A DNA stretch of 64,000 bases from Halobacterium wangiae (GTDB lineage Archaea > Halobacteriota > Halobacteria > Halobacteriales > Halobacteriaceae): positions 1,302,001 to 1,366,000 of the forward strand of contig NZ_CP089588.1 in assembly GCF_021249345.1 (NCBI RefSeq), written 5' to 3'. The translations under genes were made by a program, and so were the position numbers. This document shows, one piece after another, positions 551 through 63,009 of this stretch (positions are counted from its first letter, which is position 1; each line of letters begins with the position of its first letter). Below the pieces are notes generated by a model, which ran no database searches, was not told the DNA's origin, and was given only the letters and a program-made list of their open reading frames with translations.

Positions 551-4463
<3,913 letters not shown>

Positions 4464-33769: not shown

Positions 33770-33811
33770 GTGGCTGTGTGCTGTTCTTGCGGTCGGAGAC
33801 AATGGTCATAT

Positions 33812-34031
33812 CTCGAAAGCCCCGGCCCGCTCGATGCTCCGGGGCTCGCTGTGCTCCTCGCTCCCGGTGGTCGCTGCGGTGCTTCCTTCGCCCGGGAGCA
33901 GTCGACCGGCCCGCCCCTTTCAGTCCTGCCCGGTACCGGCTACCTAACTGGCCAACGGGAGGACTGAATGGGGCGGCCAGGTACGGGAAGCACAGCGAGC
34001 CGCGCGACCGTACCTGGCCGGGGCTTTCGAG
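33812..34031. repeat. Structured element A (four-way-junction inverted repeat)
   Basis: A 220-nt element in a 304-nt gap between the 2H gene and the helicase gene. P1: 16-bp perfect ends, 33812-33827 with 34016-34031 (CGAAAGCCCCGGCC core). P2: 33824-33840 with 33895-33911 (small bulges). P3: 33911-33927 with 33960-33976, 17 bp with one mismatch (CCGCCCCTTTCAGTCCT). P4: 33975-33986 with 34008-34019, 12 bp perfect (GGCCAGGTACGG). A further perfect 13-bp pairing joins the tips of P2 and P4: 33843-33855 (GGCTCGCTGTGCT) with 33989-34001. The same plan is found in element B. Could be an RNA, a DNA cruciform, or a mobile repeat. No coding frame of note. The rest of the gap holds nothing else I can see. 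Confidence 0.8.
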
Positions 34032-34073
34032 GTGGTGTTCTGACGACCAACTAACGAACCTGATACAGACGAT

Positions 34074-57445: not shown

Positions 57446-57732
57446 TCCTCACCGAACGACGGACCGACCGCGGCCTGCTCGTCACCGCCTGTGACGCGGA
57501 CGTGCTCGGCGAGACGTTCGAGAACGGCGAGGTGGAGTTCACGGTCAACGAGGAGTTCTACGGCGGCGACGAGGCCGACGAGGCCACCGTCCGGGACTCG
57601 CTCGCTCGCGCGAACGTCGCCAACCTCGTCGGCGACGCCGTCGTCGACATCGCCATCGAGGAGGGCTACGTCGAGGAGGGCAACGTTCTGGACCTCGACG
57701 GAACCGTTCACGCCCAGTTCATGCGTCTGTAG
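57442..57732 (+). CDS. DUF424 family protein
   Basis: A 96-residue protein. LLVTACDADVLGETFENGEVEFTVNEEFYGG (one domain, in part), then ANVANLVGDAVVDIAIEEGYV, is the DUF424 pattern found in euryarchaea, often beside translation genes. Function unknown. Starts at ATG 57442, coupled to the TPR gene. Followed by structured element B. Confidence 0.85.
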   Translation: MILTERRTDRGLLVTACDADVLGETFENGEVEFTVNEEFYGGDEADEATVRDSLARANVANLVGDAVVDIAIEEGYVEEGNVLDLDGTVHAQFMRL

Positions 57733-57789
57733 TTCCGTTCTGGCTGGGATTCGGTGGTTTCTGCTTCTGGGTGCAGTTCTACGACGTGT

Positions 57790-58037
57790 AGAAAGCCCCG
57801 GCCGTCTCGGGTCGAGGGGCTCGCTGCGCGCGCTCCCTTCGGTCGCGTGCTTGCGTCGCCCGTCTTCCCCGAGACGGCCGCCCCTTTCATTCCCACCCAC
57901 TAACGGCTAGCCAGCTGACAACGGGCGGATTGAAAGGGGCGAGGCTGTGGACGATGGCAGGCGACGCTAGCACCGAAACGACCGGGGGGAGTGAGGAACG
58001 CAGCGAGCCTCCCGAGTCCACAGCCCCGGGGCTTTCT
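57790..58037. repeat. Structured element B (four-way-junction inverted repeat)
   Basis: A 248-nt relative of element A in the 408-nt gap before sufS. P1: 57790-57801 with 58026-58037, 12 bp perfect (AGAAAGCCCCGG). P2: 57801-57810 with 57869-57878, 10 bp perfect (GCCGTCTCGG). P3: 57880-57893 with 57927-57940 (GCCCCTTTCA core, one mismatch). P4: 57943-57952 with 58016-58025, 10 bp perfect (GGCTGTGGAC). Long-range: 57818-57828 (GGCTCGCTGCG) with 57999-58009, 11 bp perfect. P2 and P4 sequences differ from element A but pair here too. The remaining 57733-57789 and 58038-58140 hold no gene that I can see. Confidence 0.8.
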
Positions 58038-58140
58038 GGGTAGTGTAACTGCCCACAAAGCCGACTTCGCTCTATCCAACTACTCCCCATCTTCCCCGGC
58101 ACCGAAGGACAGTTGAAGCCGGACTCCCTACCTCCGAGCA

Positions 58141-59382
58141 ATGAAAGCGAGCGAACAGGCGCCGCTCGACGTCGAGGCTATCCGCGAGGACTTCCCCATC
58201 CTCGAGCGCGAGGTGGCCGACGGGAAGGGCCTCGTCTACCTCGACAACGCGGCGACCGCACAGACGCCCGACCAGGTCGTCGACGTCATCGCGGACTACT
58301 ACCGCACGTACAACGCGAACGTCCACCGCGGCATCCACCAGTTGAGCCAGGAGGCCTCGGTCGCCTACGAGGACGCCCACGACCGGGTCGCGGAGTTCGT
58401 CGGCGCCGACGGCCGCGAGGAGATGGTGTTCACGAAGAACACCACGGAGTCCGAGAACCTCGTCGCGGGCGCGTGGGGGCTGAACGAACTCGGCCCCGGC
58501 GACGAGGTCGTGCTCACGGAGATGGAACACCACGCCTCCCTCGTCACGTGGCAGCAGGTCGCCAAACGGACGGGCGCCGAGGTGAAGTACATCCCCGTCG
58601 ACGAGGACGGCTACCTCGACATGGACGCCGCGGCGGAGCTGATCACCGACGACACCCAGCTCGTCAACGCTGTCCACGTCTCGAACACGCTCGGCACCGT
58701 CAACCCCGTCGCCGACCTCGCGGACCTCGCCCACGACCACGACGCGCTGTTCTTCGTCGACGGCGCGCAGGCGGCTCCCACCCGCCCCGTGGACGTCGAG
58801 GCGATGGACGCGGACTTCTACGCGTTCTCCGGGCACAAGATGCTCGGCCCGACCGGCATCGGCTGCCTGTACGGCAAGCGCCACCTCCTCGAGGAGATGG
58901 AGCCCCACCTCTACGGCGGCATGATGATCAACCGCGTCACCTTCGAGGAGTCGACGTGGGCGGACCTCCCCTGGAAGTACGAGGCCGGAACGCCGGTCAT
59001 CGCGCAGGGCATCGCGCTCGCGGCGGCCGTCGACTACCTCGACGACGTCGGGATGGAGCGCATCCAGGCCCACGAGGAACACCTCACCGAGTACGCCTAC
59101 GAGCAACTCGACGCCGACGACGTCGACATCCTCGGCCCGCCGGGCGACGACCGCGGCGCCGTCGTCTCGTTCAATGTCGACGGCATCCACGCCCACGACC
59201 TCTCGACCATCCTCAACGACCACGGCGTCGCCATCCGCGCTGGCGACCACTGCACGCAGCCGCTCCACCAGAAACTCGGCATCCCGGCGTCCACGCGCGC
59301 CTCCTTCTACCTCTACAACACGAAGGAGGAGGTCGACGCGCTCGTCGAGGGCGTCGAGGCCGCTCGTGAGATTTTCCACTGA
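58141..59382 (+). CDS. sufS: Cysteine desulfurase SufS
   Basis: A 413-residue class V PLP enzyme that takes sulfur from cysteine for Fe-S clusters. It has VYLDNAATAQTP at the start, EMEHHASLVTWQQ, the Schiff-base Lys K233 in SGHKMLGPTGIG, and the catalytic C371 in IRAGDHCTQPLHQ on the short SufS-type loop. Followed at 61 nt by sufU, its sulfur acceptor. Confidence 0.96.
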   Translation: MKASEQAPLDVEAIREDFPILEREVADGKGLVYLDNAATAQTPDQVVDVIADYYRTYNANVHRGIHQLSQEASVAYEDAHDRVAEFVGADGREEMVFTKNTTESENLVAGAWGLNELGPGDEVVLTEMEHHASLVTWQQVAKRTGAEVKYIPVDEDGYLDMDAAAELITDDTQLVNAVHVSNTLGTVNPVADLADLAHDHDALFFVDGAQAAPTRPVDVEAMDADFYAFSGHKMLGPTGIGCLYGKRHLLEEMEPHLYGGMMINRVTFEESTWADLPWKYEAGTPVIAQGIALAAAVDYLDDVGMERIQAHEEHLTEYAYEQLDADDVDILGPPGDDRGAVVSFNVDGIHAHDLSTILNDHGVAIRAGDHCTQPLHQKLGIPASTRASFYLYNTKEEVDALVEGVEAAREIFH

Positions 59383-60397: not shown

Positions 60398-61126
60398 ATT
60401 CCCTCCAGACGGCTCGCAGCGGCTCTCGCAGCGATGGTACTGCTCTCCGGCTGTTCGATGCTCCCCGGCGGCGGGGGTGGTGGCGGCGACGTGGAGCCGG
60501 ACGGCCCGGCGTACCACTCCTTCTCGTTCGCCTCCGATACCGGTGGTGCGGCGTTCGAGGCGACGCTGACCGTCGAGAAGGACGGGTCCGTGATCCACGA
60601 GGAGACGGTGTCCAGCGACGGCAGCCGGACGTTCGCAGAACTGGGCCAGGTCGAGGAGCCGGGGCCGTACACGGTGACGGTGAACACGACGATTCCGGCC
60701 GCCGGCAGCGGGAACACGAGCAAACGGGCGGAGTTGAACGGGACGCTGGGGACCGAGACGGTCGTCGACGTGACCTACCTCGGAATCTCCTTCGAGTCCC
60801 ACTCACTGCCAGAACAGGAGATGGCGGAGCCGCTGTACTTCAAGAAGGACATCCCCATGGAGATCGCCTCGACCGTCGTCGTGTCCTACGAGGGCGAGAC
60901 TGTGTTCTCGGACACCGTCGAGCGGCAGGGTACGGAGGCAGTCGAGCTCGCCGACCTCCCCGAGACCGGCGTCTACCACGTGGCGGTCAGCGGGTCGCAC
61001 GGCGAGCGCTGGGAGAATCGGACGGTCGTCCTCTCCGACCCGGGGGAGAAACTGTTCGTCGGCCTCGACGGCGACACGCCGGAGATAACCGTCTACGCGC
61101 CGGGTGAGGGGCCGTCGCGGCAGTGA
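60398..61126 (+). CDS. Tat-type lipoprotein, copy 1 (ATT at the expected start)
   Basis: Probably 242 residues from an ATT codon at 60398. The paralogue at 62278 begins ATG-CCC-TCC; here the same place reads ATT-CCC-TCC, and the first ATG in frame is at 60434, which would drop the twin-Arg part of the signal (SRRLAAALAA) and leave only MVLLSGC. The lipobox LLSGC with Gly-rich linker follows, then two to three beta-sandwich modules ([34 protein letters not shown]). A TATA box sits 26-34 nt before the ATT. Either a rare AUU start, or a start-codon mutant. Confidence 0.75.
   Translation: MPSRRLAAALAAMVLLSGCSMLPGGGGGGGDVEPDGPAYHSFSFASDTGGAAFEATLTVEKDGSVIHEETVSSDGSRTFAELGQVEEPGPYTVTVNTTIPAAGSGNTSKRAELNGTLGTETVVDVTYLGISFESHSLPEQEMAEPLYFKKDIPMEIASTVVVSYEGETVFSDTVERQGTEAVELADLPETGVYHVAVSGSHGERWENRTVVLSDPGEKLFVGLDGDTPEITVYAPGEGPSRQ
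60401..60471 (+). repeat. 71-bp direct repeat, left copy (flanking radA)
   Basis: Differs from 62281-62351 at only two adjacent positions (CT for TC). It encodes the signal peptide and lipobox of lipoprotein copy 1. See the paired repeat. Confidence 0.9.
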
Positions 61127-62277: not shown

Positions 62278-63009
62278 ATGCCCTCCAGACGGCTCGCAGC
62301 GGTCCTCGCAGCGATGGTACTGCTCTCCGGCTGTTCGATGCTCCCCGGCGGTGGCGGCGAGCAGACCACGACGCTCGACTCTCCGGACCGCCACGAACTC
62401 GTCTTCGCCTCCGAGACCGGCGGCCACGAGTACGAGGCGACGGTGACCGTCGAACGGGACGGCGAGCAACTCCTCTCGGAGACCGTCGCCTCCGACGGCG
62501 ACGGCCTGTACGCGGAACTCGCGACGTTCGACGAGCCGGGGCCGTACACGGTGACGGTGGACACGACGCTCCCCGACGCGGGCGGGGAGAACGAGCGCGT
62601 GCAGTTCGAGACGGACGGCGACCTCGGGAACGCGACCGCCGTCCACCTCGACTACCAGGACGTCGAGCACGCGACGTTCGAACTGCCCCGCCGCGACCTC
62701 GAACACGAACTCGGCGTGCAGTCGGATCACACGTCCATCGACGGGCCACAGCCGACGGAGGTCCACTTCCGCGTGGAGCACCGCGGCGAGCAGGTGGCCA
62801 CCGAGACGACGACCGTCCAGGGGAGCGAACTCACGCGGTCCGTCGACCTCGCGGAGACCGGCGTCTACAACGTCGCAGTCCGCATCGACGACACGTGGGC
62901 GAACGACACCGTCGTCGTCACCACGCCCGCCCAGCACGTCGCGGTCACCGTCAACGACCACGGCGACGACGCGACCATCGAGGTCCAGCAGCCGTTCCAG
63001 TGGAACTGA
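62278..63009 (+). CDS. Tat-type lipoprotein, copy 2
   Basis: A 243-residue protein with [20 protein letters not shown] as Tat signal and lipobox, a Gly-rich linker, and beta-sandwich modules ([49 protein letters not shown]) matching copy 1 in order. Twin Arg at 4-5 and Cys at 19. Surface lipoprotein of unknown function. ATG 62278 with TATA box. Divergent from radA. Confidence 0.82.
62281..62351 (+). repeat. 71-bp direct repeat, right copy (flanking radA)
   Basis: Same as 60401-60471 save two adjacent bases. The repeats are 1.88 kb apart with radA in between, and are more alike than the rest of the two genes. Confidence 0.9.

Follow-up and report, generated by a model that had tools for sequence, protein, structure and literature searches.

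In bacteria, REPINs are doublets of REP sequences, with units of 20–40 nt, that are moved by RAYT, and for insertion sequences of the IS6 family the ends alone suffice for the reaction. IS6 elements produce 8-bp duplications and carry a cTGTt motif in their ends, and two IS6-family MITEs, of 227 and 336 bp, are mentioned as ISfinder entries (PMC7986276). Among the haloarchaea, the PATEs of Haloquadratum walsbyi lack both terminal inverted repeats and target duplications and have palindromes in common with IS605 elements, while the SMR-A elements, of about 110 bp, insert into PATEs (PMC3119063). Here we analyse 64,000 nt of Halobacterium wangiae DNA (the window), in which a first-pass annotation, made without database searches, had proposed two structured intergenic elements, A and B, with a shared fold of helices P1 to P4 and a long-range pairing. 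Element B is one copy of a mobile DNA repeat of 250–350 bases that is common across haloarchaea. The repeat consists of two copies, in inverted orientation, of a single 119-nt unit, a long hairpin whose helices covary and whose unpaired loop bases are invariant.

Anatomy and distribution of the repeat

Element B lies, as first described, in the 408-nt gap between a DUF424 open reading frame (end at 57732) and sufS (start at 58141), and its core, with P1, P2, P3 and P4 all present, runs from P1 to P1' (57791–58036). We built a covariance model, R1, on the 119-nt unit, and with this model both halves of B are found as separate units: the left unit, or P2 arm (57783–57894, minus strand), reads outward to the left and scores 107.2 bits (E = 4.3e-20), and the right unit, or P4 arm (57926–58044, plus strand), reads outward to the right and scores 114.2 bits (E = 1.6e-21). 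The P2 stem (57800–57811 with 57868–57879) forms 12 of 12 pairs and the P4 stem (57941–57952 with 58016–58027) 11 of 12. Between them the two units are linked by P3, a central palindrome (57881–57939; CCCCTTTCATTCC...GGATTGAAAGGGG) that is conserved in sequence and shows no covariation; P1, also conserved in sequence, is GAAAGCCCC on the left (57791–57799) and, as its inverted repeat, GGGGCTTTC on the right (58028–58036).

Element A, the second copy in the window (33815–34028), lies between two convergent genes, one LigT-like and the other for a DinG-like helicase, names that, like DUF424 and sufS, were inferred from the sequences. Its left unit (33807–33927, minus strand) scores 100 bits and its right unit (33960–34036, plus strand), in which the loop of the P4 arm is shortened, 64.3 bits; R1 marks exactly these four arms in the window, two of A and two of B, at 64–114 bits. 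Full pairing of P2 and P4 had been claimed for both copies; B comes close to this, with a single unpaired position in P4, but A's P2 pairs at only about 9 of 12 positions; likewise the loop pieces CTAAC and CAACGGG do occur in both P3 loops, but CTAAC is placed differently in A and B. The similarity of the two copies is far above chance, since the P3 motif occurs four times in the window against 0.1 expected and about 20 related loci, intact or broken and with fragments counted, are present in the genome, and the view that position is not tied to one gene is borne out. Elsewhere in the window, two genes have an 80-nt lipoprotein-like start in common (60398–60477 and 62278–62357; 94% identical).

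A degenerate P3 pattern matched at least 120 stretches in a species-level genome collection, with titles nearly all haloarchaeal, and these stretches, together with the genus Halobacterium, yielded 114 copies in which P1 could be parsed at both ends, spread over many haloarchaeal genera. Among 247 sampled genomes of the phylum Halobacteriota, R1 matched 38 of the 43 Halobacteriales genomes and none of the roughly 204 others. Copy number differs widely from genus to genus; since the phylum scan scored no more than 14 candidates in each genome, the copy numbers that it gives are lower bounds. The element has no match in Rfam 15 at the gathering score, at which the sole match in the window is a tRNA, and we found no description of the core in the open-access literature searched. 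A viral origin was rejected, the P3 pattern having no match in IMG/VR and the full element none in a phage collection.

The arms vary in two further ways. Small tandem hairpins with variable stems, e.g. GTCGTTCGAGAGAGC...GCTCTCTCGTGATGACGAAAGACG...CGTCTTTCGAACCAC, are nested at particular points of the arms, inside loops or at the P3/P4 junction, in L049 (which has a 212-nt left arm), L058, L140, L145 and other copies, and recall the SMR elements found in PATEs. In nine copies a whole arm is absent (P2 in L050, L059, L131 and L133; P4 in L032, L045, L048, L080 and L098), cut almost exactly at the stem base with 3–6 nt left, in what is apparently a precise loss of the hairpin.

Covariation and strand sense of the arms

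The covariation of P2 and P4 had been proposed from A and B alone, on the understanding that pairing at chance level in a wider alignment would speak against it. No such chance-level pairing appeared in the 114-copy set, where the signal was very strong: 100 distinct P2 stems paired with their own arms at 10.72 of 12 positions, compared with 5.57 when arms were swapped with those of other copies, and 107 P4 stems did so at 10.41 of 12 compared with 5.39. When the arms were turned to one sense, mutual information revealed nested helices along the whole arm. Covariance analysis on many copies, as suggested in the first-pass annotation, was carried out on 44 diverse units: their 30 pairs were formed in 93.7% of cases, whereas shuffling gave 68.3% and slid controls no more than 46.5%, 25 of the 30 had changed on both sides, and the covariation score of 0.584 (0.169 shuffled) was reached by none of 500 shuffles. 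Helix covariation beyond chance, by which structured RNA is tested in general, is thus present in the arms.

Not all of the arm varies. Several unpaired bases of the internal loops are invariant or nearly so (A46 and A49 in 44 of 44 units; A54, C87 and A88 in 43 of 44), and position 8 of the stem keeps a conserved T-A pair. Covariation in combination with invariant unpaired loops cannot be due to chance and speaks against a mechanism that does no more than perfect palindromes, and because the stems vary in sequence yet stay paired, it appears that something reads the shape of the hairpin. Compensation can also be followed at single sites. The half element at the B site of the nearest relative (G001) has a P2 stem that differs from that of the window genome at positions 2 and 6, each change being matched in the opposite arm; the site being orthologous, this is compensation by descent and goes beyond mere difference between copies. 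At the A site the element is present in several Halobacterium species, its arms differing yet paired; the P4 stem reads GGCCAGGTACGG, GGCGGGCTACGG or GGATGGCTACGG, with the complement present for each, and this too is compensation by descent.

The shared fold stands for P2 and P4 but not for P1, P3 and the long-range helix, in which covariation was looked for and none was seen, and in which a copy's own partners have no advantage. P3 pairs within copies (12.55) as it does between them (12.51), the extensions of P1 agree within a genome to the same degree whether they come from one copy or from different copies, and the L2/L4 match scores 21.0 within a copy as against 22.4 between different copies. 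Since a copy's own L2/L4 match is no better than a foreign one, the long-range pairing can be put down to the complementarity of two inverted hairpin copies, and P1 and P3 are best described, on present alignments, as conserved sequences at the ends and in the middle of an inverted dimer.

Mismatches in the stems carry information on strand. Read on the same strand, imperfect P2 stems have 30 A·C and 11 G·T oppositions, whereas imperfect P4 stems have 35 G·T and 11 A·C, a pattern that one functional cloverleaf transcript would not produce; given this preference of P2 and P4 for opposite strands, and the lack of covariation in P1, P3 and the long-range helix, we rejected a single RNA cloverleaf. 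P2 and P4 are one and the same hairpin, placed on opposite strands. Once all stems are read in the sense that the units share, G·T outnumbers A·C by 65 to 22 (p = 4e-6), and when all 30 pairs of the 44 aligned units are counted, by 35 to 18 (p = 0.03). This excess in one sense suggests that the unit is single-stranded in action: it seems to act as a single strand running outward from the centre, once per strand of the element, either as RNA or as single-stranded DNA.

Mobility, flanks and gene surroundings

At least in its Halonotius form, the element is inserted as a self-contained unit of 339 bp and duplicates 8 bp of the target. The copy in Halonotius roseus (L053), with ends GATACTGTTCAG and CTAAACACGGCC, is flanked by two copies of CAACGATC, an exact 8-bp duplication, and two sister genomes (L230, L231) are uninterrupted at this site, with a single CACCGATC; exact 8-bp duplications also accompany L075 and L076. 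The same Halonotius genome contains an IS6-type insertion sequence (L211) of ~700 bp, with a 213-aa transposase, which carries GTGTTCAGATAAG close to either end and is flanked by direct repeats of CTAGTACC. This end core, GTGTTCAGATAAG, is present in L044 and L060 as well, and the sharing of ends with an autonomous IS6-type element was found for Halonotius roseus only. Halonotius-type copies are 307–339 bp long, have defined ends and are too small for a transposase gene, and so in their shortness, shared ends, 8-bp duplication and empty site they correspond to IS6-family MITEs.

Most copies, A and B included, are without IS6 ends. No such ends were seen beside A or B, no target duplication is demonstrable for B, and PF13610 (the IS6-type transposase) has no match in their own genome, so that the window copies have neither the ends nor the transposase of an IS6-family MITE; we assign them to the core family that they share with the Halonotius form, and not to the IS6 MITEs. 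Because the IS6 reaction requires only the ends, movement alone is insufficient to account for the conserved interior, which must be kept for another reason.

Presence and absence at orthologous sites also speak for mobility. At one Haloarcula site examined in 24 genomes, two genomes carry the full element, two a half and one a remnant, and the rest have none, and in Halobacterium the B site has a full copy in the window genome, the left half in the nearest relative and nothing in 11 others. In two genomes (G004, G011) hisG is joined through an element to the LigT side of the A site, and hisG in the window genome is accompanied by a separate element, at 1,422,030; these joins place copies at rearrangement junctions in Halobacterium.

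In other lineages a different flank predominates, with CTAG about 40–58 nt outside P1. Throughout the flanks of L031–L167, from ~8 to 53 nt outside P1 on both sides and read toward P1, a purine recurs at every third base; CTAG, otherwise rare in these flanks, lies at 40, 43, 46, 49, 52, 55 or 58 nt, nearly always in one phase modulo 3. The frame leading outward from P1 ('GFLAV...', often stopping at CTAG) is open more often than other frames. A short peptide encoded in this direction was considered and rejected, its third-position composition being unlike that of haloarchaeal genes and its residues unconserved. The left flank of L068 contains tandem 45-nt direct repeats with the P1 motif AACAGCCAGAAAGCCCC in each, and P1-motif spacings in other copies are mostly 45, 48 or 54 nt.

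Half elements also occur on four haloarchaeal plasmids (L169, L170, L171 and L174; about 2450–3110), one per plasmid, each beyond a conserved stretch of several hundred bases that precedes an SSB-like gene, with an HNH-repeat endonuclease gene following in three of the four. Rfam gave no noteworthy match in these plasmid regions, and a general link to the SSB-like gene was rejected, as a shared plasmid backbone accounts for it.

Explanations and comparison with known systems

We think it probable, if by no means assured, that B is one copy of a haloarchaea-wide, MITE-like non-autonomous mobile element with an inverted hairpin dimer as its interior, served in trans both by transposases and by a hairpin-reading protein. 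The transposases would move the element via its outer ends, which resemble those of IS6 in some lineages and belong to a second type, bounded by CTAG, in other lineages, whereas none were recognised in Halobacterium; the protein would recognise the interior hairpins as a single strand, whether as RNA or as extruded or single-stranded DNA. Such recognition, acting through the invariant internal-loop bases, would keep the interior hairpins in place, and as the 12-bp stem needs only to be a stem, its sequence could drift freely. Counting against this explanation are the missing IS6-type ends and transposase in the window's own genome, the lack of a demonstrable target duplication for B and the insufficiency of movement to account for the interior; in addition, no hairpin-reading protein was found, and a host function would equally be compatible with an element that persists at the A site in several species. 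That the 119-nt hairpin is a structured mobile core, read as a single strand, taken up between unrelated transposon ends and kept for a putative binding protein, is possible, and we put it forward tentatively. A host benefit, with the core as a structured RNA or regulatory element (a small RNA, an insulator or a promoter-side element) carried by mobile ends, seems unlikely to us. Its appeal lies in the RNA-like anatomy (several helices, invariant internal loops, tolerance of G·T), in the A-site element maintained with paired arms in several species, and in rather constant distances to genes (median distances of 98 nt upstream of starts and 59 nt downstream of stops, and few copies, 5 of 61, between facing 3' ends, all from simple gene calls); however, orthologous sites show presence and absence, halves and remnants, copy number varies by genus, the unit points to gene starts, gene ends and plasmid genes without distinction, and the orientation bias may reflect longer upstream gaps.

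Mutation might, without selection, keep the stems paired if template switching during replication copied one arm onto the other. Long palindromes are known to promote template switching, the element is just such a palindrome, and its stems are nearly perfect despite wholesale differences in sequence; but the internal loops are unpaired and invariant in all copies and have not been perfected, for which reason we rejected template switching as the sole cause; the conserved T-A pair at stem position 8 also speaks against it, and the bias of G·T over A·C would not be expected from it. We therefore consider this account very improbable, while template switching may assist compensatory change. Most improbable, in our estimate, is a REPIN-like element that a hairpin-reading Y1 (TnpA/RAYT-type) transposase would move as single-stranded DNA, even though the inverted dimer of hairpin units, the solo halves as remnants, the single-strand preference and two Y1 transposase matches in B's own genome speak for it. 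A Halonotius genome with at least 17 P3 matches (G061) has no Y1 match, 14 of 22 tnpA/tnpB loci have no sequence in common with the element and the remainder match it over short, partial stretches only, for which reason we also rejected an origin from IS605/TnpB ends, and the clean insertion has an 8-bp duplication; we know of no Y1 enzyme that makes a target duplication of this kind.

The preferred reading, a mobile element with a hairpin-dimer interior, bears on how such repeats are interpreted: a structured motif absent from Rfam, with an unusually clear covariation signal, spans most of an archaeal order, and strong covariation in a dispersed repeat need not imply a host RNA gene. An unannotated intergenic repeat thereby becomes testable, the question being which reader the hairpin has, and whether it is read as RNA or as DNA. 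Like the IS6-family MITEs, Halonotius-type copies are short, lack a transposase gene and have IS6-type ends and 8-bp duplications; the element differs in its covarying inverted hairpin-dimer interior, a comparison in which the 336-bp ISfinder entry is known here by length alone. With REPINs it shares two inverted hairpin units per intergenic element and solo units as remnants, but its unit is ~119 nt, the copy-rich Halonotius genome holds no Y1 (RAYT-type) partner and insertion brings an 8-bp duplication. PATEs and SMRs are likewise numerous, transposase-free palindromic elements of haloarchaea in which small hairpin elements are nested in larger ones; unlike the IS605-derived PATEs, the element has the P1 inverted repeat, and most tnpA/tnpB loci are unmatched by it. 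From the RNA families of Rfam 15, which it resembles in its covarying helices and conserved internal loops, it is set apart in that it matches no family, has its unit palindromically doubled and is mobile.
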